Positions 15,833 to 38,787 are shown, numbered from the stretch's first letter. The stretch is 43,127 bases of DNA from Ruminococcaceae bacterium OttesenSCG-928-L11 (GCA_030265885.1 JAJDGX010000006.1:1-43127), one strand, 5' to 3'. The notes: generated by a model from the sequence alone, not told the origin. A program made the numbers and translations.

Positions 15833-15960
15833 TTTTAAAGGTTCAATTGAAAGACCATGAGGTCACCCTCGCAAAAGGTCTTTCACTATACCGAGATTCC
15901 CCCGGTTTTTATGCATATTTTTTGAGGTCTAGAGAGTGAAAATAAAGAAAAATATAGAAA

Positions 15961-15992
15961 TTCAGCGGGATGTACAAATGCATCCCGCTGAA
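15961..15992 (-). terminator. Terminator of the sigma-like gene
   Basis: TTCAGCGGGATG and CATCCCGCTGAA form a perfect 12-bp stem with an 8-base loop, directly after the minus-strand stop. T-rich sequence (ATTTCTATATTTTTC) follows on that strand. Confidence 0.75.
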
Positions 15993-15997
15993 TCAAC

Positions 15998-16438
15998 CTA
16001 TTTGTCAGTAAATGTGCGAAGCACTTTTTGGATTTTCTTGTTGGCGAATTTGAGGTGCCGAGATACTGTGGATTGAGAAATATGTAGTCGTTCTGCAATC
16101 GCATCTTCCTTCATTTCATACCCGATCCGTAGAATATACACTTGCTGTTGACGTGGTGTTAGCTTGTCAAGCACAGCCCTTAGCCGTCTGTGTTGCTTCA
16201 ACCATTCCGCTTCAATCTGGGCCTCATCGGGTGCATCTTTACTGCGCTGAAATTCCAAATAGCGGTTACGAGCGATTTCCGTATGCTCCACCGAGGAAAA
16301 GGGTACGCGTTTGTATTCCATATGCTTGTCCTCCTGGTTTTCGTTTTCCTGTGGACGAAAACGAAGGACAAGTCGGAGAGCGGCAACCCACAGCATATAG
16401 CCGCCAAAATAGCGTATAAATTGACACCGGAGGAGCAT
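15998..16438 (-). CDS. Sigma-70 region 4-like factor of the conjugative element
   Basis: The core MEYKRVPFSSVEHTEIARNR to RTFTDK (107 residues) ends in a sigma region 4 HTH: LTPRQQQVYILRIGYEMKED followed by IAERLHISQSTVSRHLKFA. Such short sigma-like genes sit near the integrase end of many clostridial conjugative elements and probably control element genes. Two in-frame starts have good ribosome sites: ATG at 16438 (GGAGGGG) and ATG at 16321 (AGGAGG). The longer form adds 39 residues with a hydrophobic helix (FIRYFGGYMLWVAALRLVL). The track start at 16561 overlaps a terminator and is unlikely. A hairpin covers the first ribosome site. I list the long form; the short one is equally possible. 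Confidence 0.75.
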   Translation of the reverse strand: MLLRCQFIRYFGGYMLWVAALRLVLRFRPQENENQEDKHMEYKRVPFSSVEHTEIARNRYLEFQRSKDAPDEAQIEAEWLKQHRRLRAVLDKLTPRQQQVYILRIGYEMKEDAIAERLHISQSTVSRHLKFANKKIQKVLRTFTDK

Positions 16439-17750: not shown

Positions 17751-19442
17751 CTATCGAATTGCATCAAAGCGCTCAACTGCAGCTGCGTAAATCGTGAGCA
17801 TTTTTTCCAGCCCCATTTTATTTAGACTGTCAACATAGGAATCCCACTCATCAAAAGATTTTGTACCGGTTATAAACTCTGTTCTCGCAGTGTCAATCAG
17901 CTTTTTGATATCAGTTTGAATAGCGATCAGCTCTTCGTTTTCATCAAAGGTAAAGGTGAAACTAGGCCAGTAAGTATCGGTTGCATATTCGAACAATGCA
18001 CGTGCAGAGGCTGCCGGAACCGGCTCGGTCTCGCCGCCGCTGAAGTAGGGGGCCTCCTCCACCAAGGGGTTGTTACCGCCCGTATAAGGCGTATATGAAC
18101 TGACAACCTCATCAAAGGAACGTGAGCCTGTCATTTCCCCTCGTACCTTTTCATTCCAATCATATGTACCGTCGTCAAGAGCTACGAAGGTCTCTCCTTC
18201 AACACCGTAATGATAGAAGAGATTTCCTTCATCCGTCCAGAAATAATCTAACCATTGCAGTGTCTCTTGAGGATATTTATTTGTGCTTGAAATGACAGCC
18301 GCACCGGTGGAGTGGAAATGTGCACGCACTGGAGCCCAGAGCTTGTCGTCATTGGGTCCCTCCAACGCTTCGTCAATGCCTACCCAGTTATCCACCTTAC
18401 CGGAAGGCACGCTCGAAAGGTTCGTAAAGGCAAACATGCCAATCTTATCATCTTCTGCCTTAGTGACCCAATTTGCCTTTGTCATCGTAAACAGTTCTTG
18501 ATCGACCAAACCTTCCATGTAGAGCTTGTTCATATATTGGAGCATCTGCTTGTAACCGTCCGTCGCTGCAATCAGGCGAACAGTATTATTCTCTTCATCC
18601 CAGTCAACCAATTGATTCTGCTGGCCACGGTTGCTGAGGCCGAATGCACCGAGAAATATATCCTGAAAGCCAGCCCAGTCCTGCGTGCAGAAAGGGATTT
18701 CATCGCTGATATCGCCATTACCATTGGCATCTTGCTCTTTGAAAGCCACCAATAAATCATATAGGTCATCTGTCGTCTTTGGCAGTTCTTTGCCAAGGTT
18801 TTTTAGCCAGTTCGTATTGACAAACAGCTTGCGCGATACACGGAGCTCTGCGCCATCATTCACCTGGGGAAACGAATAAATTGAGCCGTCGGGATTCTGC
18901 ACGCTGGCCATGGTATCCTTGTATTTTTGCAGATAGTTCCAGTAATTGGGCGCATAATCCTGAAGCATATTATTTGCAGTCAGATCTAAAAACAACCCTT
19001 GATCACCATAGAGTAACTGATCCGAAGCGGAAATTTTACAGCGAAAAAATACGTCAGGTAAATTCCCACTGGCAAGAGAAGTGGAAATTTTCTCCGAACG
19101 TTCAGAACTGGACACCTCTATCCAGTTCACATGTACGTTTGTCATTTCTTCGTACTTCTGCCAGACGTATATGTCGTTCCATGCCGGCTGATTGTCACTG
19201 CGAGTTACCATTATGTCCAATGTTATTGGATTCTCCAAAACTGGATACAGTGTGTTACTATCGGACACAGGCACTGTGGAAGCCTCGCCTGTGCTTGCCT
19301 GACTTGCGGCGGGGGTGTCGGAAGTCGATAGAGAAGAAGATGCAGCGGAGGAGCCGCCGGAAGGGACAGATGAGCAGCTGCTGAGCGTGCCAATTGCCAA
19401 AGCCGCCGCCAAAATAATTGAAGCTAAAGAATGCATTTTCAT
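17751..19442 (-). CDS. Sugar ABC transporter substrate-binding lipoprotein (LipO/LplA-like)
   Basis: This protein of about 563 residues binds its ligand outside the membrane and delivers it to the two permeases encoded upstream. It starts MKMHSLASIILAAALAIGTL with the lipobox LSSC, then a Ser/Ala-rich linker. Mature-domain features such as DIMVTRSDNQPAWNDIYVWQ and SSTNKYPQETLQWLDYFWTD are typical of the large CUT1 binding proteins partnered with LplB/YtcP permeases. The track start at 19529 runs into the preceding gene; ATG at 19442 has AAGGAGAG nine bases upstream and lies 13 bases after the hydrolase stop. It is last in an operon of two permeases, AraC regulator, hydrolase and this gene. 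The ligand is unknown; an oligosaccharide is likely. Confidence 0.92.
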   Translation of the reverse strand: MKMHSLASIILAAALAIGTLSSCSSVPSGGSSAASSSLSTSDTPAASQASTGEASTVPVSDSNTLYPVLENPITLDIMVTRSDNQPAWNDIYVWQKYEEMTNVHVNWIEVSSSERSEKISTSLASGNLPDVFFRCKISASDQLLYGDQGLFLDLTANNMLQDYAPNYWNYLQKYKDTMASVQNPDGSIYSFPQVNDGAELRVSRKLFVNTNWLKNLGKELPKTTDDLYDLLVAFKEQDANGNGDISDEIPFCTQDWAGFQDIFLGAFGLSNRGQQNQLVDWDEENNTVRLIAATDGYKQMLQYMNKLYMEGLVDQELFTMTKANWVTKAEDDKIGMFAFTNLSSVPSGKVDNWVGIDEALEGPNDDKLWAPVRAHFHSTGAAVISSTNKYPQETLQWLDYFWTDEGNLFYHYGVEGETFVALDDGTYDWNEKVRGEMTGSRSFDEVVSSYTPYTGGNNPLVEEAPYFSGGETEPVPAASARALFEYATDTYWPSFTFTFDENEELIAIQTDIKKLIDTARTEFITGTKSFDEWDSYVDSLNKMGLEKMLTIYAAAVERFDAIR

Positions 19443-19455
19443 TATCAAGCTCTCC

Positions 19456-20289
19456 TTAAATAAATATTTCCATTCCATCGTAAGAAACAAGGAAACCTTC
19501 TTTCTCTGCAATGGGAACAAAGTCGTCATAAACAGCGTGACCGTTGTGGGAAAAATGACTCAGACAGTGTTTTGTTTGAGATGATACAACCCCGAGCTTC
19601 TCAAGACGGTGACGCACATCCAGATTGATTGGCAAGCTCATATGTCGTCCACCGGAATCAGTCTCCACGCCTCCGGTGCAATCATATGAGATCAGATCGA
19701 ACACAATGCCGCAACTAGAGAGATAACTCCAGCTCTCCTCTGGAAATACACCAGTATCATGAGCCAACAGGATGCTTTTCCCATTATGCTGTATCAGATA
19801 CATCACCGGATCGCATTTGGGGTTGTGCTCTGCCTTTAGAGGGGTAATGGTGTAGCCATCTGACTGAAATGTTTGAAACGGAATAATTTCATGAAAGAAT
19901 ACGCGGTTTTGTTCGTCCAAATGATGCTCGGATATGATCGGCCGGATCTTATTCCCGGCAGGTGCTGTCCCATATACCTGAAGAGGACGCTCGCCGTTAA
20001 AATGAGCAATCTTGTGTCGCCGCAACTCAAAATCCTCTGCACGCAGATGGTCGGTATGGTCATGTGTGATCAGGCAGGTTTGAATCTCCCAGAGCTTTAG
20101 TTTGTTTTGAATAATATGGCTGTAGGTATCCGGCCCGAAATCAATAAGTAGTTTATTGTCGATTAGTGCTTGAAACCGTGTCCGGATATTTCTCCCGCCA
20201 AGAGCTGCGCTTCGTGTACAGGTTGGGCAGTCGCAAAAGAAGCCAGGGACACATTCTCCTGCACCGGTGCCAAGGTATTTAAGTCTCAT
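19456..20289 (-). CDS. PhnP-like MBL-fold phosphodiesterase (copy 1)
   Basis: This 277-residue metallo-beta-lactamase-fold hydrolase starts MRLKYLGTGAGECVPGFFCD. The FCDCPTC cluster matches the extra zinc-binding insert of PhnP, the 5-phosphoribosyl 1,2-cyclic phosphate phosphodiesterase. THDHTDHL (about 108-115) is the HxHxDH metal site, with LLAHDTG and LSHFSHNG supplying further ligands. PhnP itself serves phosphonate breakdown, but no phn genes are here. Placement in a sugar transport operon suggests a sugar cyclic phosphate or sugar phosphodiester substrate (inference). The ATG overlaps the end of the AraC gene by 11 bases, implying coupled translation. A second copy, more than half identical by eye, is at 30090. 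Confidence 0.85.
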   Translation of the reverse strand: MRLKYLGTGAGECVPGFFCDCPTCTRSAALGGRNIRTRFQALIDNKLLIDFGPDTYSHIIQNKLKLWEIQTCLITHDHTDHLRAEDFELRRHKIAHFNGERPLQVYGTAPAGNKIRPIISEHHLDEQNRVFFHEIIPFQTFQSDGYTITPLKAEHNPKCDPVMYLIQHNGKSILLAHDTGVFPEESWSYLSSCGIVFDLISYDCTGGVETDSGGRHMSLPINLDVRHRLEKLGVVSSQTKHCLSHFSHNGHAVYDDFVPIAEKEGFLVSYDGMEIFI

Positions 20290-22585: not shown

Positions 22586-23503
22586 TTAACCTTTTACAGC
22601 CCCAATCATGACGCCCTGCACAAAGTATTTCTGTAGGAGCGGATATAAAATCAGAACAGGCAGACTGGACACCACAATAACTGCGTACTGTATGCTGACA
22701 AAGGCTAGCGATGACTCTGCCATATGCTGCCCGATTCCCGTGTCATCTTGTAGTGCCTGGCTTTCCAACAGCAGTCTGCGCAGCACCAGTTGAAGAGGAA
22801 ATTTGTCCTTTGAAGACATGTACAACAGCGAATCAAAGTACGCGTTCCAGTGGCCGACCGCATAGAATATTACCATGACGGCAATTATGGACTTCGATAG
22901 CGGCAGAACCACCTTAACAAGTGTCTGAATATTGTTGCAGCCGTCAATTTTCGCAGCGCCAAACAAATCCTCGGGAATTGAATTCTGAAAATAGTTCCGC
23001 ATTATAAGCATATTATACACGGAAATAGAGCCTGGTAAAATAAGTGCCAGTGTATTATCCAGCAAATTCAAATCGCGGATAAGCAAATAGTTGGGGATCA
23101 TGCCTGCGCTAAAAAACATGGTAAATGTGATAAACACAGTAATTGTATTATGGCCAAACATCTCCTTGCGGGAAAGCGGATAGGCGCAGCAGGTTGTCAT
23201 CACAAGATTAATAAGGGTACCAAGTACTGCAATAACAACCGTGTTTTTAAATCCGCTGAGCAGATCCTGATTGGTTATAATACTCTGATAGGCGTTAAGG
23301 GTTATCTGCTTGGGCAAAAGCCACACCTCGCCCCTTGTTATGGAAAGCGGGTTGCTAAAGGATGCGCTAACAACATATATCAACGGATACAGTACAAGAA
23401 GGGAGAGCAATACAGCTATAAGAATGATTACGATATCAAACACCATGTCAAACCCGGTCTCGTGGATAAATCCGCCTTTGCGGCGTGCACTAACAGATTT
23501 CAT
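22586..23503 (-). CDS. CUT1 sugar ABC transporter permease (YtcP/AraQ-like)
   Basis: This inner-membrane permease of about 305 residues has six predicted helices and the EAA loop LFGAAKIDGCNNIQTLVKVV, which contacts the ATPase. The end, LLQKYFVQGVMIGAVKG, is the usual tail of this family. The track start at 23569 overlaps the previous permease; the ATG at 23503 has GGAGGGG just before it and follows the upstream stop by 19 bases. It pairs with the LplB-like permease at 23523. No ATPase gene is in the window, so a shared MsmX-type ATPase elsewhere is expected. Confidence 0.93.
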   Translation of the reverse strand: MKSVSARRKGGFIHETGFDMVFDIVIILIAVLLSLLVLYPLIYVVSASFSNPLSITRGEVWLLPKQITLNAYQSIITNQDLLSGFKNTVVIAVLGTLINLVMTTCCAYPLSRKEMFGHNTITVFITFTMFFSAGMIPNYLLIRDLNLLDNTLALILPGSISVYNMLIMRNYFQNSIPEDLFGAAKIDGCNNIQTLVKVVLPLSKSIIAVMVIFYAVGHWNAYFDSLLYMSSKDKFPLQLVLRRLLLESQALQDDTGIGQHMAESSLAFVSIQYAVIVVSSLPVLILYPLLQKYFVQGVMIGAVKG

Positions 23504-23522
23504 TTGATCCCCTCCATCACGC

Positions 23523-24485
23523 CTACCACAGGCTGGTTTCCGTAAGTTTTTTTGAAACCTGATTAACAATTAAGAGCAGCACGATGTTAATTACGGAATT
23601 AAACAGCCCGACGGCCGTGGAATAACTGAATTGCGCACTCTCAATTCCGCTTTTGTAAACATAGGTCGAAATCACCTCGGAGGCACGCACGTTCATAGTG
23701 TTTTGCATGAGATATACTTTTTCAAAGCCAACGCTCATCACTTTGCCGGAGTTCATAATAAGGAGTATTACTGCGGTTGGAATCAGAGCGGGTAGTGTAA
23801 TGCTGCGAATAATCTGCAGGCGATTCGCGCCATCAATTCGGGCCGACTCAATGAGCTGCGGATCAATATTCGATAACGCCGCCAAGTAAATAATTGAGCT
23901 GTAGCCTGAATTTTGCCATATACCGGAGAGAATGTACATTGGGCGAAAATATTCCGGCTTGCCAAAAAAGTAGACTGCTTCCCCGCCACAGGCGGTAATC
24001 AACGCATTGAACACACCGGTATTCGGATTCATCATGGCCTCCATAATGGCGACCAGAATAACCGTTGAGATAAAGTGGGGAGCGTATGTAATTAGTTGTA
24101 GCCCCTTTTTTAAGGATTTGCTGCGAAGCTCGTTCATTATTACTGCTAATAAAATGGGCACAGGAAAGCTGCAGATCAATTGCAACAGGCTCAAGCTCAA
24201 AGTGTTCCACATGATCTCGGAAAAATAAGCATTCTGGAAAAAACGGATAAAATTCCCGAAACCAAAAGCAGATGCCCAGGGACTCCTCCAGTAGCCAAGA
24301 TTAAACTTATAATTCTTAAATGCGATAATTAGTCCTGCCATCGGACGATATTTAAATACTAAAAAATAAGTCACCGGCAGCAAAAGCAACAGATATAAGT
24401 CCCAGTTATTCTTGATAGATTTTTTAATCGCATGCACTTTATTCTCTTTTTCCAGTTTTTTATTGCTTAGCTTGACACCTGTCAT
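23523..24485 (-). CDS. CUT1 sugar ABC transporter permease (LplB-like)
   Basis: This 320-residue permease opens the operon. The N-terminal NNWDLYLLLLLPVTYFLVFK is followed by YRPMAGLIIAFKNYKF, the family hallmark, and the EAA loop is LIESARIDGANRLQIIRSIT. Six helices are predicted. The start is ATG at 24485 after GGTGGGG; the track begins one codon earlier at a TTG. A predicted promoter lies at 24528-24556, so transcription of the five-gene operon (two permeases, AraC, hydrolase, binding protein) should begin here. Confidence 0.93.
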   Translation of the reverse strand: MTGVKLSNKKLEKENKVHAIKKSIKNNWDLYLLLLLPVTYFLVFKYRPMAGLIIAFKNYKFNLGYWRSPWASAFGFGNFIRFFQNAYFSEIMWNTLSLSLLQLICSFPVPILLAVIMNELRSKSLKKGLQLITYAPHFISTVILVAIMEAMMNPNTGVFNALITACGGEAVYFFGKPEYFRPMYILSGIWQNSGYSSIIYLAALSNIDPQLIESARIDGANRLQIIRSITLPALIPTAVILLIMNSGKVMSVGFEKVYLMQNTMNVRASEVISTYVYKSGIESAQFSYSTAVGLFNSVINIVLLLIVNQVSKKLTETSLW

Positions 24486-24527
24486 CAATACCCCACCAAT
24501 CTTAACTAAAATGAAGCGGCAATGGTG

Positions 24528-24718: not shown

Positions 24719-27700
24719 CTACGCTTCCTCAAAAAACCAAACTGCACCGGGATGCCATCCGCTCTGACTGGTGTGTGCATAGGTAACACGATAAAGTGTT
24801 CCTTCATACATAACAAGATCTCCCTTATTCAGTAAAACACCATATGTCCATTCAAGTATATTGCTCTCATCTTTTTCGGCAATGACTTGCCATATAGCAT
24901 ATGTGGCTTCGGAAGGCCTCCACCCTTCATGGGATTTATGGGCCAAAATGCACTCAAACACCATGTCGTCGCACCTTGCCTGATCGCCGACAGCATAATC
25001 GGTTCCAGTCTGCCACAACTCAACTTCAACCTCTGGGTCGGGTGTAGGTTCAGGCTCTGCTAAATGATTATTGGCAAAGAAAAAATAGTCGAGATTACAG
25101 ACATAGGTTTTGCCGCTATCCGGCACAAAGCGCAGAAGAAGGTTGTGGTTGCCAGTAACGGGTTGATCCAGTGAGCACTCAAATATTTCATATACCGACC
25201 ACCCTGATGGATGAGTTGCGCTTGTCTTGCAAGTGCCTACCAGGCTCGCATTGATATATTCACCGCTCGCATCAGCATCAATGTACAATTCTATGACACC
25301 GCCTGCATTCTCACCCTTAACAGATGCGAAAAACGAAACGTCGCTCGCTCCATCATTTCCAAAATCTATATTGGGGTACCAAGCCCATGTATTAGCCTTT
25401 GTATTTTCTAATGTTTTGGCTTTTACAGATAATACAGGGTCACATTGTATCGCATTTTCTGCTTGGATATTGGAGAACGCATCGACAGGTTCATAATGAG
25501 GCTCGTTTTGAGTAAAAACAAAGTAATCAATATTTGCCACATAGGTCATACCGGCATCGGGAATGAAGCGCAATAACAGACTGTGTCGTCCCAACAAGGT
25601 ATCATCCAAATCTATTGTAAAATTTTGATAATCATTCCAGTTTGAAGGGTTTGTTCCTGCAATTGTACAGTCTGCTACTTTGACGGCATCAACTAAGCTG
25701 CCGTCAGCTCCGGCATCCGTATACACTTCAATTATACCAGATGCTCGGTCGCTGCGTGCTGATGCATAAAAAGTCACTGTGCCTGCACCATGCTCATTGC
25801 CAAAATCAATATTGGGATAAAAAGCCCATGTGTTGCTTCGGGTATCACCGAGATAAGATGCTTTTTTCATGATTTCGGCAGCACATGCAGGTGTATTTTC
25901 AGCTTCTATGATGCTATATGCATCCTTGGTTTCATATCCCGGAACATGCGCTTCGAATATGTACGAGTCAAGATTGCAGGTGTATGTCTTGACAGTGTTA
26001 AATTTCAATATCACATTGTGCCTGCCTGTAACAACCTGATTCAGACTGCATATGAATTCCGAATACACCCCCCAATTATCGGGATCGGTTGCCGTCACAG
26101 TACAGGTTCCAACTTTCGTTGCGAATGACAAGCTTCCTTCTATGGTACCGTCAATATAGATGTCAATGGAGCCTCCCGCATTACTTCCTTTAACAGCCGC
26201 ACGGAATGTCGCACTTTGTGCACCGGCTCCAAAATCCACATTAGAATAGTAGGCCCAAGCTCCGTTTTTTGTATTTCCTATGTTTACGCTTTCTTTAGAG
26301 AGGATCGACCATGCATTTAGATCCTCCGCTTCAATGGTTGCAAAGGCATCTCTGCTTTCGTTGCCAAGTCTGGTCTCATAAACTCCCGGAGTCGCCTGCG
26401 AGGCAGGAAGTATCTCCGATACTCGGGTGGATGCTTCATCCTGTTGATATGCGAATTTGAACAACTGCGAAGAGGTAATGTCCGATTCGGAAATGTCTTT
26501 GTAGCTGGAAACTGAGATGCTGGGCCCATCAAAGCTTGAATTTGTGTTTTTTCGGCTCCAACTATAGGCACTGTTACTTTCATCAAATCGTTTGGCGATG
26601 CGCATACCGCGGCTACGGTTTGCACCCATAGTAAACTCTGCAATAGGATTACCGTCCAAGAAGCCATAAAACTTATCAGTAGTTATAATAATGTCCTGCT
26701 CAGAGAGGGAAGTTCCGTACTCCTGGTTAAAATCAGAAACCTGTGGAGTACCCGAAAAACTTCCTCCATATGTAAACCATACTACGATCGTTTGTCCTGG
26801 CGCAATCCTTCGTTCGGGAAGCTCGATTGCACTTTCCCAAGCTATTGAGCTCACATCGGTAATATTTCCCCACAAGAATGTGTAATCCGCAGTCGAAAAG
26901 CCAGCCGTTCCGACATTGGTTATCTCAAAATACCGATAACCAGTTCTTGCATTAGGGAATATTTCCGAAATAATGGGCTGTGCATCCCCATAATCGTTAT
27001 GTAAAGTTAGCCGATAGGTTGTGCATACGCCCTGCGAATTTTTTGCAAACAGAATCAGTTCATTTTCACCCTGTTCAAGCGTCAATTGAAACGTTGTCTG
27101 CAGCGAATTCTCTAATGTGCCTGAAAGTTCCGCTCCTGCATGCAATTGAGCGGTTACTGATATTCCGGCAGCGTGGTTCACGGTAACAACTGCGTTATCA
27201 GCGGTTCCATTATAAAAATATCCATACTTAAATGCTTCAAAATGGGCGATTTCTTCTTGGTTTACTGATATTCCCGATAAGGTCGGTGGCGCGCCGAGAG
27301 AAAGCTTGGCATAAATACACGAATGATCAGAAATATATGGATTTTCAAGGACGTCGTGCTTATATACACCAACACTACCGTTTGACACAAAAATGTGATC
27401 AATCACCTCTACCGCGCTGCGATTATAGTTCTCGCCATACCCGGCGCAGCTGGGTAATATCGAGTAGTCATCGGTCATATATTTAGAATTAACATAACCG
27501 TTTTTCTCATCGGCAAGGTATGCATAGCCTCTGGACTCTTCTGTGGCATTGGTATCTCCGGTTATAATTACCGGACAGTTGTACTGTCTCGCCAGTTCGT
27601 CTGCCTTGGCGACAAGTTGTCTGGAGCAAAGCTCGTTGATATAATCAGAGCTCTGGTGATCATAATGGAGATTGATATGAATGTAAGAGGGTTGTGCGGT

Positions 27701-28246
27701 CTGTTTTTCCGCTAAGATAGCGTAAGAGAAAACACGCTCATACCGCATTCCAGCATAGAGTATATTGCCGTTTGTATCCTTGATATCTCCATATTTAGAT
27801 TTTACATCGGGCGTTTCTGACAGCCAATAGCCGCCCTCCTGTAAAAGGGTATATTTATCGCTACGATATAGAATAGGTGAATATTCATTGGATCCGCTGC
27901 GCAAATCTATGCCGTTGTCACTGCATTTTCCGGCAATTTCATATGACACACCATCCGGCCATGTGTGTGTAACAACATCGCTTGCAAGATAATCAGCCCA
28001 AATACTTGTTACTTCATTCAGTCCAATAGAATCGGGCCGGTAGTCTTCCAACATATCAATAAACATTTCACCACGAGTGAAGCCATCTGGGTTCGTAGCG
28101 GTTAATGGCTGTGTCGAGGTAGTAAGCACATTAAAACTCATCACTCCAATATCATCTTCAACATAAGTCAACGAAGCGGCACGAGCCTGTACTGCAATCG
28201 TTAGTATCAGAATATGCGCCAGAAGAATGCTTAATACACGTTTCAT
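24719..28246 (-). CDS. Secreted EEP-family phosphodiesterase with CBM6-like and chitin-binding modules
   Basis: The 1175-residue precursor has a signal peptide (MKRVLSILLAHILILTIAVQ, cut after ARA). The endonuclease/exonuclease/phosphatase domain (about 30-320) has the metal and catalytic motifs VMSFNVLTT, IGLNEVT, ITGDTNA, VIDHIFVS and ISDHSCIYAKL. A cadherin-like sandwich (about 325-420) and a lamin-tail-like domain (about 425-600) follow. Three CBM6-like repeats begin DAFATIEAEDLNAW, DAYSIIEAENTPA and DAFSNIQAENAIQ. The end has two CBM5/12-like chitin-binding modules (WQTGTDYAVGDQARCDDMVF; VLLNKGDLVMYEGTLYRVTY). It is probably a surface or released phosphodiesterase or phosphatase acting on a glycan; nuclease action is the alternative. 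ATG at 28246 has AGGTGG upstream; the track begins at GTG four codons earlier. Confidence 0.85.
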   Translation of the reverse strand: MKRVLSILLAHILILTIAVQARAASLTYVEDDIGVMSFNVLTTSTQPLTATNPDGFTRGEMFIDMLEDYRPDSIGLNEVTSIWADYLASDVVTHTWPDGVSYEIAGKCSDNGIDLRSGSNEYSPILYRSDKYTLLQEGGYWLSETPDVKSKYGDIKDTNGNILYAGMRYERVFSYAILAEKQTAQPSYIHINLHYDHQSSDYINELCSRQLVAKADELARQYNCPVIITGDTNATEESRGYAYLADEKNGYVNSKYMTDDYSILPSCAGYGENYNRSAVEVIDHIFVSNGSVGVYKHDVLENPYISDHSCIYAKLSLGAPPTLSGISVNQEEIAHFEAFKYGYFYNGTADNAVVTVNHAAGISVTAQLHAGAELSGTLENSLQTTFQLTLEQGENELILFAKNSQGVCTTYRLTLHNDYGDAQPIISEIFPNARTGYRYFEITNVGTAGFSTADYTFLWGNITDVSSIAWESAIELPERRIAPGQTIVVWFTYGGSFSGTPQVSDFNQEYGTSLSEQDIIITTDKFYGFLDGNPIAEFTMGANRSRGMRIAKRFDESNSAYSWSRKNTNSSFDGPSISVSSYKDISESDITSSQLFKFAYQQDEASTRVSEILPASQATPGVYETRLGNESRDAFATIEAEDLNAWSILSKESVNIGNTKNGAWAYYSNVDFGAGAQSATFRAAVKGSNAGGSIDIYIDGTIEGSLSFATKVGTCTVTATDPDNWGVYSEFICSLNQVVTGRHNVILKFNTVKTYTCNLDSYIFEAHVPGYETKDAYSIIEAENTPACAAEIMKKASYLGDTRSNTWAFYPNIDFGNEHGAGTVTFYASARSDRASGIIEVYTDAGADGSLVDAVKVADCTIAGTNPSNWNDYQNFTIDLDDTLLGRHSLLLRFIPDAGMTYVANIDYFVFTQNEPHYEPVDAFSNIQAENAIQCDPVLSVKAKTLENTKANTWAWYPNIDFGNDGASDVSFFASVKGENAGGVIELYIDADASGEYINASLVGTCKTSATHPSGWSVYEIFECSLDQPVTGNHNLLLRFVPDSGKTYVCNLDYFFFANNHLAEPEPTPDPEVEVELWQTGTDYAVGDQARCDDMVFECILAHKSHEGWRPSEATYAIWQVIAEKDESNILEWTYGVLLNKGDLVMYEGTLYRVTYAHTSQSGWHPGAVWFFEEA

Positions 28247-28370
28247 TACATACGCCACCTTTGTGTTATATTTATATATACTTTTTACTTCATATAAAAT
28301 TATTGTGCAATATGCAAATTGCGTTTTCTGTACAAGTTCGCAGATTACATACGATAATTCAAGATCAATA

Positions 28371-30065
28371 TTAGGTTCTGCCCAGCAGTTCTACACCTGA
28401 TGTCCGCAGTTCCATGAGTTTCTGCTCCGCAGTTTCTGCATTTGTTTCGCGCACAAAAGAGTAAAGCTTTACTTTTGGTTCTGTTCCACTTGGGCGAACA
28501 ATCAGTTTTGCATCACCTTCTAATTGGAGCTCCAGTACATTAGAGGGTGGCAAACAACATGGGTTTTCCGGTGTGGCAGGCATACCTTTTTCATAGTCAA
28601 CCACCTTTAATACACCAAATTTCCCGATTACGGATGGCGGAGACTTTCGCAGCATTGAAATAGCTTTCTCCATCCGTGCTTTTCCCTCTGGAAAGTCCAA
28701 CGATATACTATCCAAGGCATTTCTGTAATAGCCGTATTCCACACACAACTCTTCGAGCATATCGCACAAGTTTTTTCCGTCCTTCTTGTAGTGACGTGCC
28801 ATATCACAGATGAGCAATGCGGCATTCACCGCATCCTTATCTCTCACATGAGTACCCGATAGATAGCCGCAACTCTCTTCGAATCCAAATATATAGGCAT
28901 CTTCTTTTCCCTGCTTTTCCAGAAGCCCAATTTGCTCTCCGATATATTTAAATCCGGTCAGTACCTGATGCACTGTAACCCCATATTTGCGCGCTATGGG
29001 AAATGCCATGTCAGTGGTGACAATAGTCTTTACAACGGCGGCGGCTTTCGGAAGTGAATTGGCTGTGCATTTACTGCGACAGATGTAATCCAACAGCAAT
29101 ATGCCGACCTCATTGCCAGATAAAGGGCGGTACTCTCCGGCACATCGAACGGCAACGCCAACCCGGTCGCAGTCCGGATCTGTCGCTAACAGCAAATCGG
29201 GCTGAAGCTTTCGGCTTAAGGCGAGGCCAACCTCTAAAGCTTCCGTTTCCTCTGGGTTGGGATATGGACAGGTAGGAAAATTGCCATCAGGAAATCCCTG
29301 CTCCGGCACAATATCGAGGCGGACACCGCTTTCCAACAGGACACGCTGCACACAGGTCAGCCCCGCGCCGTTAAGAGGGGTGTACACCACATGGAGTGGA
29401 ATATCGATATCCGGTTCAACTCGCAAGGCCCTGACAGCGGCAAGATATTCCTCGGTAATGGTATCGCTGATCCATTTGATGTCCCCCATCTCGGCCGCTT
29501 TCTCGAAAGCCATTGTAATGACATCGTCGAAGCAATCAATATGGTCTATCCTTTCTTGTACTGCACAAGCAGCTTCCGGTGTAATCTGACATCCATCCGA
29601 CCCGTAAACCTTATATCCATTGTATTTGGCAGGATTGTGACTGGCTGTGATGCAAATTCCAGCATCACAACCAAGCCGGCGCACTGCAAAGGATAGGGCA
29701 GGGGTCGGCATTAATAGTGGATAAAGATGGGTGGTAATCCCATTGGCGGCAAATACGCACGCCGCTTCTCTGGCAAAACACTCAGAATTAATGCGGCTGT
29801 CATAGGCTATCGCAACCGATGGCTTGCGCTTGCAGTTATTCAGCAGATACCCGGCTAACCCTTGGCTTGCTTTTCTGACAGTGAATATGTTCATACGCGC
29901 TGTTCCTGCTCCCAGAATACCTCGCAGGCCTCCGGTGCCAAAGAGCAGCGGTTCTCCAAAGGCTGCCTCAATTTCAGAGACCTGCATCGCTGCCAGCTCC
30001 TGTAGCAATTCAGAACTTTCGCCTGCATGCTGTTTCCACCGTTCCCATATTTCAATAGGTATCAT
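28371..30065 (-). CDS. Phosphohexomutase (phosphoglucomutase/phosphomannomutase family)
   Basis: This 564-residue enzyme interconverts hexose-1- and hexose-6-phosphate. All four loops are present: TASHNP with the phosphoserine, DPDCDR as the metal loop (Cys in place of the usual Gly), GFEESCG for sugar binding, and RPSGTEPKVKLY for phosphate binding. The start GTGGLRG is also typical. Length suits the larger phospho-sugar mutases. The track begins at TTG; ATG at 30065 with GAAGGAGA is better. It directly follows the PhnP-like gene, so it probably takes a sugar-1-phosphate released by this locus into glycolysis. Glucose or mannose preference cannot be read from the sequence. Confidence 0.93.
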   Translation of the reverse strand: MIPIEIWERWKQHAGESSELLQELAAMQVSEIEAAFGEPLLFGTGGLRGILGAGTARMNIFTVRKASQGLAGYLLNNCKRKPSVAIAYDSRINSECFAREAACVFAANGITTHLYPLLMPTPALSFAVRRLGCDAGICITASHNPAKYNGYKVYGSDGCQITPEAACAVQERIDHIDCFDDVITMAFEKAAEMGDIKWISDTITEEYLAAVRALRVEPDIDIPLHVVYTPLNGAGLTCVQRVLLESGVRLDIVPEQGFPDGNFPTCPYPNPEETEALEVGLALSRKLQPDLLLATDPDCDRVGVAVRCAGEYRPLSGNEVGILLLDYICRSKCTANSLPKAAAVVKTIVTTDMAFPIARKYGVTVHQVLTGFKYIGEQIGLLEKQGKEDAYIFGFEESCGYLSGTHVRDKDAVNAALLICDMARHYKKDGKNLCDMLEELCVEYGYYRNALDSISLDFPEGKARMEKAISMLRKSPPSVIGKFGVLKVVDYEKGMPATPENPCCLPPSNVLELQLEGDAKLIVRPSGTEPKVKLYSFVRETNAETAEQKLMELRTSGVELLGRT

Positions 30066-30089
30066 TGTTAATTTCTCCTTCAAGCAGAT

Positions 30090-30920
30090 TTACAGTGATA
30101 TCCGAAGCCCATCGTAAGCAACGACAAAGCCTTCCCTTTGTACAAGAGGTGCAAAGTCATCATAAACTGCTCTCCCATTATGGGAGAAATGGCTCAGGCA
30201 GAAGGTTGTTTTTGTATTTGCAAGGCCATGAGCATATAGCGCATCCCGCATACGGATATTCTCCACAAAGGCCATGTGCTTATAACCCGCCTCCTCGTTA
30301 ATACCGCCGGTGCAATCCAGTGAGACAAAGTCGAAGGGTATCCCAGCATTCTTCAGATATTCCCAGGTTTCCTCCGGAAACCACCCCGTGTCATGGGCAA
30401 GAAGTATTCGCTGATTCTCTGCTTCAATTTGATAAAAAACCGGCTCGCTTTCCGGGTTATGCGCCGCTTTTAAAGGAGTAATCCGATAGCCATCGGACTC
30501 AAATGAGACAAAGGGCTTGATATCATGTAAAAACACACGATTCTGCTCCGAAAGGCGAAATCGATCGACAACTGTACTGATTTGCCTGGCAGATGGTGCA
30601 GTAGCATACACATGTAAGGGCTTCAAATCCCCATGTGCAATTTTTTCGCGGCGCAGTTCAAAATCCTCAGCCCGCAGATGATCCGTGTGATTGTGGGTAA
30701 TAAGACAAGTGGTGATGTTCCACAGCGGCAGCCCTTGATGGATTACATGAAAATAAGTATCGGGGCCAAAATCAAGAAGTAAGGTTTCATCGATGGCGAT
30801 TTGGAAACGAGTGCGGATGTTTCGACCGCCCAGTTCACGGGAGCGCTGACAGGTGTCACAGGTGCAAAACATACCGGGAACACATTCGCCGGCCGCAGTG
30901 CCAAGATAATGAATGTCCAT
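30090..30920 (-). CDS. PhnP-like MBL-fold phosphodiesterase (copy 2)
   Basis: This 276-residue paralogue of the protein at 19456 starts MDIHYLGTAAGECVPGMFCT with the cysteine cluster FCTCDTC, and carries the metal motif THNHTDHL, LLAHDTG and LSHFSHNG. The order GRNIRTRFQ, LLDFGPDTY and AHNPESEPV is shared with copy 1. It is 24 bases before the mutase gene, so its product may feed that enzyme: hydrolysis of a sugar 1,2-cyclic phosphate would give sugar-1-phosphate. This is an inference from PhnP chemistry and context. A hairpin terminator lies just upstream, so it is expressed by read-through or a promoter I did not find. Confidence 0.85.
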   Translation of the reverse strand: MDIHYLGTAAGECVPGMFCTCDTCQRSRELGGRNIRTRFQIAIDETLLLDFGPDTYFHVIHQGLPLWNITTCLITHNHTDHLRAEDFELRREKIAHGDLKPLHVYATAPSARQISTVVDRFRLSEQNRVFLHDIKPFVSFESDGYRITPLKAAHNPESEPVFYQIEAENQRILLAHDTGWFPEETWEYLKNAGIPFDFVSLDCTGGINEEAGYKHMAFVENIRMRDALYAHGLANTKTTFCLSHFSHNGRAVYDDFAPLVQREGFVVAYDGLRISL

Positions 30921-30995: not shown

Positions 30996-32579
30996 CTATC
31001 CCTTGGTTGCTACAAAGGCATCTAACTGGCGCTGATATTCTTCCAGCACAGTATCAAGCCCTGCGGCTTTCATCTTTGCCAAAGCGGCCGGGAAATGCTC
31101 GTCGTAGGACTGCACGCCCAGATAAATTGGCGCAATGGATGCGGAGAATTCGCTGTTCAAATTGGCAAACTCGGTTTCAACAGGAGTCGCATCGAAGAAG
31201 AAGTCGGCGGAAATATGGTTGACTGCATTTTCATCGATCTCATACAACACCGGTAGCTGAAGACTGGGGGTGGAGGCATCGGGAAGGATGAAGTTGACGT
31301 TGCCCATCATCCAATCGGAGATTTGATAGAGCCGCGTATTATTTTCGTCTCGAATGGCTGTACGGGTTTTGCCGTCCACCAGAGTATAGGTCTCATCCTC
31401 AACGCCATAGAGGAAGAGGTTATAGTTATCCTGATCGGTATAAAGCCAGTCGAAGAACTTAACAGCCTCATCCACATGTTTGCTGGTGCTGGAGATGCCG
31501 TTAAAGTTTTTCACATTGATATATCGGATGCTCTGCTTTTCGGGGTGCAGCTTTATGTAGAGCATTTCCTCATCCTTCATGTCCGGATTCTGATTTTTAC
31601 GGATATCGCTGAGGCTTCCGCCGGTGCCGAAATAGACGGCCCAGCTACCCATAGAACGCTGATTGTCAACTTGCTCCTTGGGTACGGAGAGGACATCAGG
31701 GTTGATGAGGCCACGGTTATAGGCATCACGGAACCAGTCGCAGTCCTTTTTAAACTCGTCTGTTTCAATCCAAGATTTCACTTCGCCATCCATGGTGATA
31801 TAGGCGATGGTGTCCTTGACGGCAAAGGGGAAGCTGTCATACTCCCGGTGCAGAACGGTGGTATGTGATGACAGTGGAATGGCTGCCCCTGCGCTGTTAA
31901 ACATCAGATATGGCTTATCCGCGCCTTCCCACTGCTTCATCAGCTGCTCGGTGATATCCAGCAGGTCTGCATTTGTTTCGGGATACTTCAGGTTATATTT
32001 GTCCAGCATATCCTGCCGAAGTGTCATAACGCCCTCGCTGGCCAGCTCACACCACATAACGGGGACACCGTATACGCGCCCATTGATGGTTGCACTGCTC
32101 CATGCTACATCGTCAATGCTTTTCAGCATATTCTGGCCATGCGTCTGTACAGCATCTGTGATATCGGCGAGCCCACCCATAGACTGGTAGCTGGAAAGGG
32201 TGATCCTGTCCTGCATGACATGGAAAATATCAAATTCCTCACCGGTTGTCAGCATCAGATTGATCTTTTGCTGCCACACATCCCATTCGATAAACTGAAT
32301 GTCCAGATTGATATTTTTATCCGCTTCCAGCTTTTCATTTACAATCTCCAGCATTTCATTGAGCATTTTGGGCTCTGAAGGGGGGAGCAGCATTTTCAGA
32401 GTCACCGGGTCAGCGGTGGCGGGAGCAGTCTGTGATGATGAAGCCGCCGTGCTTGATGCCGATGGCGGAGTCGCGTTGGAGGCTTCAGGCGTATTGCTCT
32501 GACCGCCGCTGCATCCACTAAAAGCAGAGAGTACCAGTCCTAATCCGATGATAATAGTAGACAGGGATTTGCGTTTCAT
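30996..32579 (-). CDS. Sugar ABC transporter substrate-binding lipoprotein (second set)
   Basis: This 527-residue lipoprotein starts MKRKSLSTIIIGLGLVLSAF with the lipobox FSGC and a Thr/Ser/Ala linker. The mature part (VTLKMLLPPSEPKMLNEMLE; SSTSKHVDEAVKFFDWLYTD) fits large CUT1 binding proteins. It shares the overall plan of the protein at 17751 but is clearly diverged, so the two sets may bind different ligands. TAGGAGATG precedes the ATG. It is the fourth gene of an operon starting with the DUF1861 gene and is followed by a hairpin terminator. Confidence 0.92.
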   Translation of the reverse strand: MKRKSLSTIIIGLGLVLSAFSGCSGGQSNTPEASNATPPSASSTAASSSQTAPATADPVTLKMLLPPSEPKMLNEMLEIVNEKLEADKNINLDIQFIEWDVWQQKINLMLTTGEEFDIFHVMQDRITLSSYQSMGGLADITDAVQTHGQNMLKSIDDVAWSSATINGRVYGVPVMWCELASEGVMTLRQDMLDKYNLKYPETNADLLDITEQLMKQWEGADKPYLMFNSAGAAIPLSSHTTVLHREYDSFPFAVKDTIAYITMDGEVKSWIETDEFKKDCDWFRDAYNRGLINPDVLSVPKEQVDNQRSMGSWAVYFGTGGSLSDIRKNQNPDMKDEEMLYIKLHPEKQSIRYINVKNFNGISSTSKHVDEAVKFFDWLYTDQDNYNLFLYGVEDETYTLVDGKTRTAIRDENNTRLYQISDWMMGNVNFILPDASTPSLQLPVLYEIDENAVNHISADFFFDATPVETEFANLNSEFSASIAPIYLGVQSYDEHFPAALAKMKAAGLDTVLEEYQRQLDAFVATKG

Positions 32580-32617: not shown

Positions 32618-33490
32618 CTAACCCTTGACAGAGCCAATGGTCAGGCCGGAAACAAAATATTTTTGCAGGTAGGGATATAGCAACACAATCGGGCCAATGG
32701 TTACAATCGCGGTTGCCATTTTGAGGGTTTCGGTAGGTACCATCTCATCACTTGCGCCCATGGTATCCTGAAGATCACGCATCATCTGCACCTGACTTTT
32801 CAACTGGAGCAGTAGATATTGCAAAGGATAGAGATTTTTATTATCCACCAGCATGATAGCATTCCACCAGTCATTCCAGTAACGCAGCCCATAAAAAAGC
32901 GCCACCGTTGCAATAACCGGCACACACAGCGGTACATAAATTCGCCATGCAATCTGCATATCATTTGCGCCGTCAATGGTCGCGGATTCCCGAAGAGAGT
33001 CTGGAATCCCCTGCATAAAATTCTTGACAAGGAACAGGTTAAAGGGGCTGAACATCAGTGAAGGGATAATTAACGCCAAAAAGTTATTGCGCAGCCCCAG
33101 TCGCACACACATCATATACCACGGAACCATACCGGCATTGAACACCATGGTTATGAAAAAGAACATGGAAATACGCCCGGCGTAGATGTTGTCCTTGAAT
33201 GAAAGCGTATAGGCTGCCGCGCAGGTGATAACGACTGCCAATATTGTCCCGGATAACGTCACGGCGATGGAAACACCGTAGCTTCGGATGATGCTGGAGC
33301 CGGATGCAAAGATCATGCGGTAGGCATGCGCCGACCATTCCAGGGGGAAAAAGCTATAGCCCTGCCGCATAATGGATTCCTCTGTGGAAAGCGACACGAT
33401 GATGGCCAACAGCATGGGAAAGAAGCAGATTACGGAAAAAAGGCCGATAAAAATGTAGATTGCGATTTTATAAGGGCGAAATCGTCTCAC
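32618..33490 (-). CDS. CUT1 sugar ABC transporter permease (YtcP-like, second set)
   Basis: This 290-residue permease has helices such as IAIYIFIGLFSVICFFPMLL, the EAA loop LRESATIDGANDMQIAWRIY and the family tail LLYPYLQKYFVSGLTIGSVKG. GGAGGTGACGG lies before the start. It follows the LplB-like gene by 12 bases and precedes the binding protein by 38 bases, a normal operon spacing. As in the other set, no ATPase is encoded nearby. Confidence 0.93.
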   Translation of the reverse strand: MRRFRPYKIAIYIFIGLFSVICFFPMLLAIIVSLSTEESIMRQGYSFFPLEWSAHAYRMIFASGSSIIRSYGVSIAVTLSGTILAVVITCAAAYTLSFKDNIYAGRISMFFFITMVFNAGMVPWYMMCVRLGLRNNFLALIIPSLMFSPFNLFLVKNFMQGIPDSLRESATIDGANDMQIAWRIYVPLCVPVIATVALFYGLRYWNDWWNAIMLVDNKNLYPLQYLLLQLKSQVQMMRDLQDTMGASDEMVPTETLKMATAIVTIGPIVLLYPYLQKYFVSGLTIGSVKG

Positions 33491-33502: not shown

Positions 33503-34438
33503 TCAATACAGTGCGCCATCAGGGAAAAAGCGGTTGACCAGCTTGTTGGATCCAAACACCATAATAAATCCAATCAGAGACTGGAACAGCCCTACCGCCA
33601 TGGCTTGAGACGGGTTGCCGGTTTGGCGCAGCGCCCGAAATACGTATGTGTCAATAATATCCGTAGTGGGATATAAAACACCGTTGTCCCCGATAATGGC
33701 GTAAAACATACCAAAATCCCCAAACATAATCTTGCCGATGGATAACAGTGTCAAAATGCAGACAGTCGGCATCAGCAGCGGAATCGTAATGCTGCGAATT
33801 TGCTGCCAACGGTTTGCACCGTCAATTTCTGCCGCTTCATACAACGTGGCATCAATGCCGGTAATGGAAGCCAGATAAATGACCGCATCCATACCGGTTC
33901 CCTTCCACACCTTCATAATGACTAAAATACTCGGCCATGCCGATGCTGTGGAATACCAGTTGACTGAGTCCATCCCAGCCATTTTCAGGATCTGGTTGAC
34001 TACACCATACTCGGTGGAAAAAAAGCCATAGAGCATATAGCCAACCACAACCCATGAAATATAATGGGGGAATAACATAAGGGATTGGTTTACCCGCATA
34101 AACAGGCGGCTGCGAACTTCATTGAGCAGAATTGCGACTGTAACAGAGGCAACTGTCGTAAAGAGAATGAACAGTAAATTCAGCTTAAGAGTATTTCCAA
34201 TCACTGTCGCTGCTGCATTGCTCTTGAAAAAAAACTCAAAATTCTTCAAGCCGACAAACTCACTGTTAAAAATTCCGCTGCGATAGTTAAACTTCTGGAA
34301 TGCAATAATTATGTAAGGATAGGTGCAGTAGCCAAACAGAAAGGTATAGGTTATTGCCGGCAGCAAAAGAAGATACCGGTACGGATGCCGCCTGATGTGC
34401 CAAACAAACCCTCGTTTTGCCTTGATTTGCCGGTTCAC
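33503..34438 (-). CDS. CUT1 sugar ABC transporter permease (LplB-like, second set)
   Basis: This 311-residue permease starts MNRQIKAKRGFVWHIRRHPY. The hallmark CTYPYIIIAFQKFNY is followed by the EAA loop LYEAAEIDGANRWQQIRSIT. Six helices are predicted. It lies 12 bases after the DUF1861 gene with AGGAGG (AAGGAGGGATTC) before the ATG, so uptake and the putative phosphorylase are made from one transcript. Confidence 0.93.
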   Translation of the reverse strand: MNRQIKAKRGFVWHIRRHPYRYLLLLPAITYTFLFGYCTYPYIIIAFQKFNYRSGIFNSEFVGLKNFEFFFKSNAAATVIGNTLKLNLLFILFTTVASVTVAILLNEVRSRLFMRVNQSLMLFPHYISWVVVGYMLYGFFSTEYGVVNQILKMAGMDSVNWYSTASAWPSILVIMKVWKGTGMDAVIYLASITGIDATLYEAAEIDGANRWQQIRSITIPLLMPTVCILTLLSIGKIMFGDFGMFYAIIGDNGVLYPTTDIIDTYVFRALRQTGNPSQAMAVGLFQSLIGFIMVFGSNKLVNRFFPDGALY

Positions 34439-34450: not shown

Positions 34451-35389
34451 TTAAAGGGTCACAATTGGCCCATGGCCTTTGAATGGATAGTCGATAACAA
34501 TGCGGCCGGATTCTACATCCCCAAGGCCGCTGTACAGGTCACATTTTCCGTCGGGCCGCATTACGATTCCAGCTGTAAACACACAATCCGCCAGTTTGGG
34601 CACCTTACAGGAACCATGGGGATAGCAGGCGCGCGTACCCAGAAGCTTCAGCTCCGATGCCTGATGCTTTGTGCGATCAAAGACATAGGACATATTCATA
34701 TACACCGACAGATCATTTTCCCGGTAAGAAATGTGGCCGACTACGCCGACAGTTCCATCCTCAAGCAAATAAACCTGATTGCAGCCACCCCACTGATTGT
34801 CGCTGAACAAGCCCTGAATAGGCTCAGCTTTTTCAATGACAGCAGGAGATAACTCATCCAGTGTGTTGATTTCTGCATAACCAATAACAGATTCACTGCC
34901 GTACTGTTTGCGTATAGATTCACCTCGCGGACGGGAAAACACACCAATTTTACCGCCCAAGTCAACCAGCCTGATATCCTTCATCCGATCCGGCCCTGTG
35001 GTGAAATAACACAGGTCATCAATGTCGGTTCCCCGGTAGAAATATCCATTAAAGGTGGCCACTTTCCCACATTCTTTGCGGACATGGGTTCCTCCCATTG
35101 TGATTTCATCGCCGATAAAGGCTACATAGGGATCCTCCAGAGGGTAAATCATTGCATCGGGTACGAGCTGCCATGTATCTGTGCCGGTTTTGGCAAAAAG
35201 TCGTACACAGGAGCTAGCCCAGCGTTCCCTTTTTTCGACACGGCCCAATATGTATTCCTTTCCCCGCCAACAAAAGGGGATCGAAGGATTATATACATCG
35301 TAGCCATCGATTCCAGTAAACGTGAGCTTTGCACTCTCGTATACATGCCTTTCGGATTCAAATGCTTTCTTCATATCCGCTAAATCCAT
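34451..35389 (-). CDS. DUF1861/MTP-1 family protein (GT108-like), putative mannoside phosphorylase
   Basis: This 312-residue protein has no signal peptide. FTGIDGYDVYNPSIPFCWRG, YPLEDPYVAFIGDEITMGGT and LPTYPHGS-like CYPHGSCKVPKLADCVFTAG resemble the DUF1861 (MTP-1) five-bladed propeller family. That family is related to GH130 and in Leishmania acts as beta-1,2-mannosyl transferase-phosphorylase (CAZy GT108). The EDP motif corresponds to the conserved acid region of GH130-like enzymes. A phosphorylase would make mannose-1-phosphate, which the mutase at 28371 could use. It is the first gene of the transport operon, with a predicted promoter at 35431-35460. The family assignment is from recognition only; a plain glycosidase-like or binding protein remains possible. 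Confidence 0.7.
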   Translation of the reverse strand: MDLADMKKAFESERHVYESAKLTFTGIDGYDVYNPSIPFCWRGKEYILGRVEKRERWASSCVRLFAKTGTDTWQLVPDAMIYPLEDPYVAFIGDEITMGGTHVRKECGKVATFNGYFYRGTDIDDLCYFTTGPDRMKDIRLVDLGGKIGVFSRPRGESIRKQYGSESVIGYAEINTLDELSPAVIEKAEPIQGLFSDNQWGGCNQVYLLEDGTVGVVGHISYRENDLSVYMNMSYVFDRTKHQASELKLLGTRACYPHGSCKVPKLADCVFTAGIVMRPDGKCDLYSGLGDVESGRIVIDYPFKGHGPIVTL

Positions 35390-35430: not shown

Positions 35431-35460
35431 ATTATATCATTATATTGATATTTATGTCAA
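35431..35460 (-). promoter_or_regulatory. Predicted promoter of the second transport operon
   Basis: On the minus strand consensus TTGACA (35460-35455) and TATAAT (35436-35431) are separated by 18 bases, in a very AT-rich stretch about 40 bases before the DUF1861 start. Confidence 0.65.
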
Positions 35461-35786: not shown

Positions 35787-36950
35787 ATGCCCAAGATCCC
35801 TATGTATCAAAAAATATATGAGGATGTGTTGGCAAGCATCCGCACCGGAGAAGCCAGCCCCGGCGACCGAATTGACTCAGAGGACTCTTTGGCGGAGAAG
35901 TATGGCGTAAGCCGCATTACCACAAAGAAGGCTCTGTCCCTTTTGGGCGAGGAAGGCTATATTATTCGTAAGCCCGGCAAAGGCTCCTTTGTGGCGGATT
36001 CCGCAAGTGTTGCTGCTGTCGACAGAAAAGTTAAGGATACTGTACGAAAAAAACTGGGGTTTATCATTGACTACGTGGGTAACAGTTTTGCCCTGAATCT
36101 GTTCAACCAAATCTCTCTTCAGGGAACAGAGACCGGCTATGATATGCTGATTAGTGTCTCTCATGCCTCGCAGGAAGTGGAAATGCGCGCAATAGATGCC
36201 ATGAAGCAAAGCGGTTGTAATGGGATTATTCTGGTGCCAGTTCTTCGTGAATTTTACAATCAGGAAATCATCCGTAGCATCGCCGACCACTATCCAATCC
36301 TGACCATTGACCGTGAATTAGCCGGACTCCCCTCTCCCTGTGTCAGTACAGACCATCGTAAGGCCAGCGCAGAGTTGACGGCGTATTTGATACAGCGCGA
36401 ACACAAGCACATTGCCTTTTTCCATACTCGCCCCAACGTATCAAAAAGCGAGGGGCTTCGTGCCTCAGGCTATCATGACATGATGGTGCAGCATGCACTA
36501 TCAGACACCGCCAGCATCTTTACCCCAACCGTTCATTTTGGTACGCATCTCCTTCCTTTCGCTGCCGGGATCGCTTCGCCGGATTCGGAGGCGCAGCAAA
36601 AAATTGCACAGATTGAGGCGGAGATTTTGACTTTTTTTGATGCTAATCCTCATGTCACAGCTGTAGTATGCTGCACGCATCCAATGGCCTATCTCACCTA
36701 TACCCTCCTGATGCGAATGGGAAAATCCATTCCGGCAGATATCTCCATTGTCTGTTTTGACGAGATGGAGCAAATTCAGCGCACTGTGCACTTCACTCAT
36801 TTTCACCAGAATGAGATTGGGATTGCGCAACATGCGCTTCAACTGATGGGAACCCTTATCAGCGATGGTGTTACCACAGAAAATGCCGCCAATATTTTTG
36901 TGCCCGGAAGTATTGTGGAGGGAAATACTGTGAGAGCAATTTCAGAGTAA
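35787..36950 (+). CDS. GntR-type transcription regulator with LacI-like sugar-binding domain (AraR-like)
   Basis: This 387-residue protein has an N-terminal GntR winged helix (IPMYQKIYEDVLASIRTGEA, SLAEKYGVSRITTKKALSLL, then GYIIRKPGKGSFVA). A periplasmic-binding-protein-type effector domain (KLGFIIDYVGNSFALNLFNQ to ISIVCFDEMEQIQ) follows. AraR of Bacillus has the same architecture. It is divergent from the DUF1861-transport operon and likely represses it and itself, with release by a sugar or sugar phosphate. AGGAG precedes the ATG, and the palindromic sites at 35677-35751 lie upstream. It is the only plus-strand gene of the metabolic block. Confidence 0.92.
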   Translation: MPKIPMYQKIYEDVLASIRTGEASPGDRIDSEDSLAEKYGVSRITTKKALSLLGEEGYIIRKPGKGSFVADSASVAAVDRKVKDTVRKKLGFIIDYVGNSFALNLFNQISLQGTETGYDMLISVSHASQEVEMRAIDAMKQSGCNGIILVPVLREFYNQEIIRSIADHYPILTIDRELAGLPSPCVSTDHRKASAELTAYLIQREHKHIAFFHTRPNVSKSEGLRASGYHDMMVQHALSDTASIFTPTVHFGTHLLPFAAGIASPDSEAQQKIAQIEAEILTFFDANPHVTAVVCCTHPMAYLTYTLLMRMGKSIPADISIVCFDEMEQIQRTVHFTHFHQNEIGIAQHALQLMGTLISDGVTTENAANIFVPGSIVEGNTVRAISE

Positions 36951-38760: not shown

Positions 38761-38787
38761 GCCATTGCTGCTTCAAATCAGGTTTAA

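Follow-up and report, generated by a model that had tools for sequence, protein, structure and literature searches.

What does a secreted phosphoesterase with five putative carbohydrate-binding modules act upon, and why does its gene lie among sugar-import genes? These questions are raised by eep, a gene of Ruminococcaceae bacterium OttesenSCG-928-L11, whose surroundings we analysed across a stretch of 43,127 nucleotides (GCA_030265885.1, JAJDGX010000006.1:1-43127; hereafter the window). A preliminary description of this DNA had reported, at 24719-28246, an EEP-fold enzyme with three CBM6-like repeats, a lamin-tail-like domain and two chitin-binding-like modules, and had considered this architecture rare and aimed at a chitin-bearing surface, not at free DNA. 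The minus-strand open reading frame spans 24719-28258, its probable start codon being an ATG at 28246 with a ribosome site, AAAGGTGG, closely upstream, and the coordinates first given are therefore correct. Read by eye, the product begins with a typical Sec signal peptide that ends between ARA and AS at about residue 23, followed by the EEP domain, an Ig/cadherin-like stretch (weak), a lamin-tail-like (LTD-like) region, three CBM6 modules and two CBM5/12 modules (Table 1).

Table 1. Positions in the window of eep, its predicted parts and the neighbouring genes.
Feature	Position	Strand	Evidence
eep: secreted EEP phosphoesterase (predicted), five CBMs, 1175 aa	24719..28246	-	
Sec signal peptide, residues 1-23 (MKR...ARA/AS)	28178..28246	-	by-eye sequence reading
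EEP catalytic domain, residues 30-318	27293..28159	-	Pfam, PDB matches, profile, fold, residues
Ig/cadherin-like beta domain, residues 320-422	26981..27289	-	weak profile matches only
Lamin-tail-like region, residues 424-620	26387..26977	-	LTD below cut-off; weak alignment to L240 LTD
CBM6 module 1, residues 630-766	25949..26359	-	Pfam, PDB match
CBM6 module 2, residues 773-915	25502..25930	-	Pfam (3 stretches), repeat reading
CBM6 module 3, residues 922-1060	25067..25483	-	Pfam (3 stretches), repeat reading
CBM5/12 module 1, residues 1077-1122	24881..25018	-	Pfam; PDB 1ed7, deacetylase tails
CBM5/12 module 2, residues 1131-1170	24737..24856	-	Pfam
GT108 (DUF1861) homologue of beta-1,2-mannoside phosphorylases; opens the run	34451..35389	-	profile, 6q50 match
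ABC permease 2a	33503..34438	-	
ABC permease 2b	32618..33490	-	
ABC solute-binding protein 2 (SBP_bac_1 + DUF3502)	30996..32579	-	
PhnP-like MBL-fold hydrolase 2	30090..30920	-	
Phosphohexomutase (PGM/PMM superfamily), adjoins eep	28371..30083	-	
ABC permease 1a	23523..24488	-	
ABC permease 1b	22586..23569	-	
AraC-family regulator, 766 aa	20279..22579	-	
PhnP-like MBL-fold hydrolase 1, 60% identity to MBL2	19456..20289	-	
ABC solute-binding protein 1	17751..19529	-	
Divergent GntR/LacI-type sugar-responsive regulator, at head of run	35787..36950	+	
Promoter-like site TTGACA-18-TATAAT, 12/12, directly upstream of GT108 gene	35431..35460	-	consensus match

The catalytic domain matches Exo_endo_phos (PF03372) with E 1.1e-8 (35.6 bits against a cut-off of 24.5) and, among PDB sequences, 4c1r and 3mpr (1.5e-13). 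We aligned it with 55 relatives out of 80 fetched loci, and the profile built from these 56 rows retrieves 3g6s, 4c1r and 3mpr at approximately 1e-80 and 3l1w at 1e-60; nocturnin is the next family (1e-17), while DNase I and exonuclease III appear at 1e-4 to 1e-7 (DNase I at 1.6e-4 to 1.8e-4). The EEP fold assigned earlier is borne out by structure prediction: Foldseek, queried with the domain as modelled by AlphaFold (pLDDT 93.6, pTM 0.92), places 3mpr, 3g6s and 4c1r at the top, the same ranking as that of the profile. The entry 4c1r is named 'B. thetaiotaomicron mannosyl-6-phosphatase Bt3783'. All of the near-invariant positions examined (16/16) are conserved in the eep protein, including a full catalytic set (N39, E78, H194, D231, N233, D283, D307 and H308); also present are the subfamily marks E121, W141, S143, P146 and R171, invariant across the 56 rows, the signature E...WLSxTP...R, and S306, which likewise agrees with the subfamily. 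Given this profile order, fold match and residue conservation, the enzyme looks intact and is placed by sequence and model in the Bt3783 (mannosyl-6-phosphatase) branch, apart from the DNases. Bt3783 (4c1r; also 3mpr and 3g6s), which comes out best in the PDB whether compared by sequence, by profile or by structure, has its fold and invariant residues in common with the eep domain; identity is only about 25%, however, which counts against a mannan-directed reading, and eep differs in adding five CBMs and the LTD-like region and in lying within a clostridial ABC-importer locus.

Binding modules of both families score above their Pfam gathering cut-offs, in keeping with the three CBM6-like and two chitin-binding-like modules originally described: CBM_6 (PF03422) in three stretches (E 4.8e-37, 127.5 bits) and CBM_5_12 (PF02839) in two (E 1.1e-13, 51.4 bits). 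PDB sequence matches are 2v4v for CBM6 (1.8e-11) and, for CBM5/12, the tails of chitin-oligosaccharide deacetylases (5.3e-9) and 1ed7; the CBM5/12 pair fits chitin as a putative ligand. The CBM6 family binds many different glycans. Single eep CBM6 modules have matches of about 40% identity in other clostridial proteins, which also counts against a mannan-directed reading. In its favour, the best tandem match to the array in Clostridia is a GH76 alpha-1,6-mannanase with five CBM6 (L099:7389-11378), which has another catalytic domain and 28% identity over the CBM6 array. The lamin tail domain (PF00932) falls under its cut-off of 34.3 bits in the eep protein (E 0.007-0.022, 15.6-17.2 bits). In L240, a clostridial EEP protein, the LTD match is likewise under the cut-off (E 1.9e-6), and this stretch aligns weakly to the region of eep residues 424-620, where a lamin-tail-like identity is plausible, and likely if unproven; AlphaFold run without an alignment on residues 316-636 gave pLDDT 35.6. 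Secreted bacterial nucleases that combine EEP and LTD-like modules are known, and the LTD-like signal (E 0.007-0.02) could thereby be taken to indicate that the protein is exported as a DNase and degrades DNA that is extracellular or bound to walls. We consider such a role highly improbable, given the gap between the DNase I and exonuclease III scores and the 1e-80 of the mannosyl-6-phosphatase group, all of whose W-L-S-x-T-P signature and related residues are conserved; for the EEP domain itself, a DNase identity was rejected on profile ranking (DNase I at about 1e-4).

The gene lies within 12 collinear minus-strand genes with gaps of no more than 230 bases, ordered as GT108, two permeases, a solute-binding protein, an MBL-fold protein, phosphohexomutase, eep, two permeases, AraC, a second MBL-fold protein and a second solute-binding protein. 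These surroundings, in which importers, mutase, MBL-fold proteins and GT108 occur in one run, are what is new here. The importer genes downstream of eep, 230 bp away, may constitute a separate transcription unit; an 11/12 sigma-70-like site after eep is a consensus match only, and such sites are overall no more frequent than in shuffled sequence. At the head of the run, the 34451-35389 product scores 371.5 bits with the DUF1861/GT108 profile, matches the Leishmania GT108 structure 6q50 with E 1.5e-101, and retains the catalytic Asp (LEDP) that is mutated in the D94N structure 6q4z; by homology, it is a putative GT108-type beta-1,2-mannoside phosphorylase. GT108 enzymes can also synthesise beta-1,2-mannan, which counts against a catabolic reading. 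The GT108 protein of the window is a close homologue of the Leishmania mannosyltransferase-phosphorylases (MTP family) but is bacterial and lies beside sugar importers, and is therefore likely to be catabolic and not concerned with storage. As phosphorylases, GT108 enzymes act on beta-1,2-mannan and produce alpha-mannose-1-phosphate (PMC8950772).

With a GT108-type phosphorylase, a phosphohexomutase and two ABC importers as neighbours, the likely substrate of the eep product is phosphorylated mannan, and chitin is probably an anchor only. We propose, with moderate confidence, that the locus serves the utilisation of phospho-beta-mannan and that eep provides it with a phosphoesterase, anchored to the wall, for mannan-phosphate cleavage. 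As a secreted, metal-dependent member of the Bt3783 branch of the EEP superfamily, the enzyme would be held on a polysaccharide surface, most likely the fungal wall, by its chitin-type CBM5/12 pair and three CBM6 modules, and would there cut the phosphate ester tying mannose chains to wall mannan. In Candida phosphomannan, a beta-1,2-mannose chain is joined to wall mannan through a phosphodiester (PMC3750861, PMC4112839); the linkage cut could be that of these phosphodiester-linked beta-1,2-mannosides, or of the mannose-6-phosphate remaining after uncapping. Released beta-1,2-mannosides would be taken up through one or both ABC importers and their beta-1,2 links phosphorolysed by GT108 to alpha-mannose-1-phosphate, which the adjoining phosphohexomutase would convert to mannose-6-phosphate for glycolysis, saving ATP. 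The mannosyl-6-phosphatase grouping fits the preliminary description's suggestion of mannosyl phosphate as one substrate to assay; its term phosphodiesterase is best read as putative, the nearest characterised relative bearing a phosphomonoesterase name. The description's view of an enzyme aimed at a chitin-bearing surface, not at free DNA, survives in part: the CBM5/12 modules agree with a fungal-type surface and the profile ranking with a target other than DNA, but the bond attacked is likely to be a mannan phosphate, with chitin probably serving for attachment.

Two other readings concern the choice of phosphate ester and of glycan. The enzyme might be a phosphomonoesterase only, removing the phosphate of mannose-6-phosphate on mannan uncapped by other microbes and so opening the chain to other enzymes; Bt3783, its closest characterised relative, is named as a phosphomonoesterase (mannosyl-6-phosphatase), and GT108 could then use the acid-stable beta-1,2-mannosides, which are linked without phosphate (PMC4112839). 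We judge this rather unlikely. The organism's own genome (76% complete) lacks the GH92 needed for uncapping, and L101, at 41% the nearest of the EEP relatives found, has a phosphohexomutase and a transporter as neighbours, which suggests that the sugar phosphate is retained as product. This relative is a leaderless protein of 293 aa in a Lachnospiraceae genome; an MFS (OPA-looking) transporter gene, the EEP gene and, directly after it, the phosphohexomutase gene are consecutive (L101:5443-9184), possibly forming a cytoplasmic sugar-phosphodiester pathway. Alternatively, the target could be some other phosphorylated glycan or glycolipid, such as a GPI, a phosphoglycan or the protozoan beta-1,2-mannan that is built on a mannose cyclic phosphate. 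The PhnP-like MBL proteins would then act intracellularly and open the phosphate, whether cyclic or terminal. The closeness of the GT108 protein to Leishmania enzymes and the PhnP-like character of both MBL proteins are compatible with such a target, as is a mannose cyclic phosphate primer, which figures in a 2006 title among the references of PMC4264767. It is nevertheless improbable, since chitin-type modules fit fungal walls better and mannogen is intracellular. The PhnP-like MBL family is known for a sugar cyclic phosphodiesterase; consistent neighbours were not found for MBL homologues in 20 other genome stretches, a further point against this reading, and we therefore draw no function for the PhnP-like proteins.

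Searches elsewhere agree with the supposed rarity of the architecture. Across approximately 890 genomes, the full protein gave matches to the EEP domain or the CBMs alone and never to the whole; no relative was found when the single full protein was scanned against genome contigs, and the full protein was in none of the relatives. In plasmid and phage collections, the EEP matches were all distant, and those to CBM5/12 were few and weak. GT108 exceeds its cut-off in 2 of the 149 genomes of the family, that of the window included. No EEP gene occurs in 17 GT108 loci from the class (0/17) or in one from the family (0/1), and no GT108 in 80 EEP loci (0/80). With no second EEP + GT108 locus found, we infer the link in the window from gene order alone, and a conserved kind of phospho-beta-mannan locus, pairing EEP and GT108 in more than one genome, did not emerge from the loci searched.

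Partial resemblances to the window do occur. Window-like permeases (62-63%) and a solute-binding protein (39%) flank GT108 in L091, window-like permeases (42-50%) lie near it in L094, and a mutase is near it in L089 (44%) and L098 (46%). In L089, a GH78-looking protein lies between GT108 and the phosphohexomutase, and bacterial GT108 contexts differ. A mutase is close to EEP in L101, L115 and a syntenic group (L102, L106, L108, L113, L121, L138 and L146), amounting to about three independent arrangements among the 80 EEP loci. In six loci from ruminant-gut Clostridia (L102, L108, L113, L121, L138 and L146), the phosphohexomutase gene is followed by three tandem EEP genes of eep's branch, mostly with MalQ further upstream of the mutase; L104 and L107 have two EEP domains within one protein. 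Eight EEP relatives, of which Chryseobacterium accounts for five, have GH92 no further than 10 kb away; with the EEP-mutase neighbours and the window-like genes near GT108, this counts in favour of the mannan-phosphate role. Because EEP proteins of eep's branch are found in many contexts, and given the lack of a second EEP + GT108 case among these loci, the product might be a broad phosphatase or phosphodiesterase that scavenges phosphate or attacks lipids on chitinous surfaces, unlinked to the mannan genes. We think this quite improbable: the EEP domain belongs to the branch of a mannosyl-6-phosphatase, and eep is one of 12 collinear genes that also encode sugar importers, GT108 and a mutase.

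Genes for conjugation coupling proteins stand on both sides of the run; one flank also carries two large serine recombinases, and the opposite flank a group II intron. Fragments of coupling protein frame the sugar genes at 10639-15063 and 37355-42663; the two recombinases in this frame are 39% identical to each other, and the coupling-protein gene on the right appears to be interrupted by the group II intron reverse transcriptase. An inverted repeat with 26-nt arms and an 8-nt loop (15947-16006) is located between a sigma-like gene and the recombinase genes, and sulfatase and arylsulfotransferase genes occupy the left end of the contig (1082-4366). Direct repeats marking insertion of the run gave only weak matches, probably due to chance. 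From the rarity of GT108 in the family, the absence of the full protein from relatives and the mobile-element flanks, the run is probably acquired cargo on conjugative-element DNA; the binning of a mobile contig in a 76% complete genome can also be wrong. Neither GH76 nor GH92 was found in this genome at that completeness; a complete alpha-mannan pathway of its own was rejected for this reason, and alpha-mannan itself would therefore not be digested.

Two known systems invite comparison. For Thermoanaerobacter Teth514_1788/1789, it has been proposed that beta-1,2-oligomannan is taken up by an ABC importer and phosphorolysed to give Man1P (PMC4264767). This proposal resembles that made here for the window, but the Thermoanaerobacter cluster has GH130 instead, is without an extracellular CBM-bearing phosphoesterase, and was proposed to supply GDP-mannose. 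The MAN-PUL2 locus of B. theta is a Bacteroides PUL whose make-up is unlike that of the window, and the solved EEP chain on its side has no CBM, unlike eep; both loci have a beta-1,2-mannan enzyme, in MAN-PUL2 within a yeast-mannan locus. The MAN-PUL2 beta-1,2-mannosidase BT3780 acts on Candida mannan (PMC4599007). By gene number, Bt3783 should be close to BT3780, and the pairing of an EEP protein with a beta-1,2-mannan enzyme would by analogy have a parallel there.

The eep locus is thus a set of known parts in a new combination. In its most ambitious form, which we advance only tentatively and hold to be doubtful, our proposal is that the eep product is the first wall-anchored mannosyl phosphodiesterase, which releases beta-1,2-oligomannosides from their phosphodiester tether on fungal phosphomannan, and that the mobile locus imports these, as 1-phosphates or free chains, all of which GT108 converts to mannose-1-phosphate with no ATP spent on phosphorylation. 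In Candida, beta-1,2-mannosides linked through a phosphodiester form an immune epitope; we know of no enzyme that takes them off intact. If the proposal is true, a gut bacterium would possess a dedicated, surface-targeted phosphoesterase, importers and a Leishmania-type phosphorylase for the beta-1,2-mannosides of Candida; bacterial GT108 would acquire a testable catabolic role, and the enzyme might be a possible tool to trim fungal phosphomannan.
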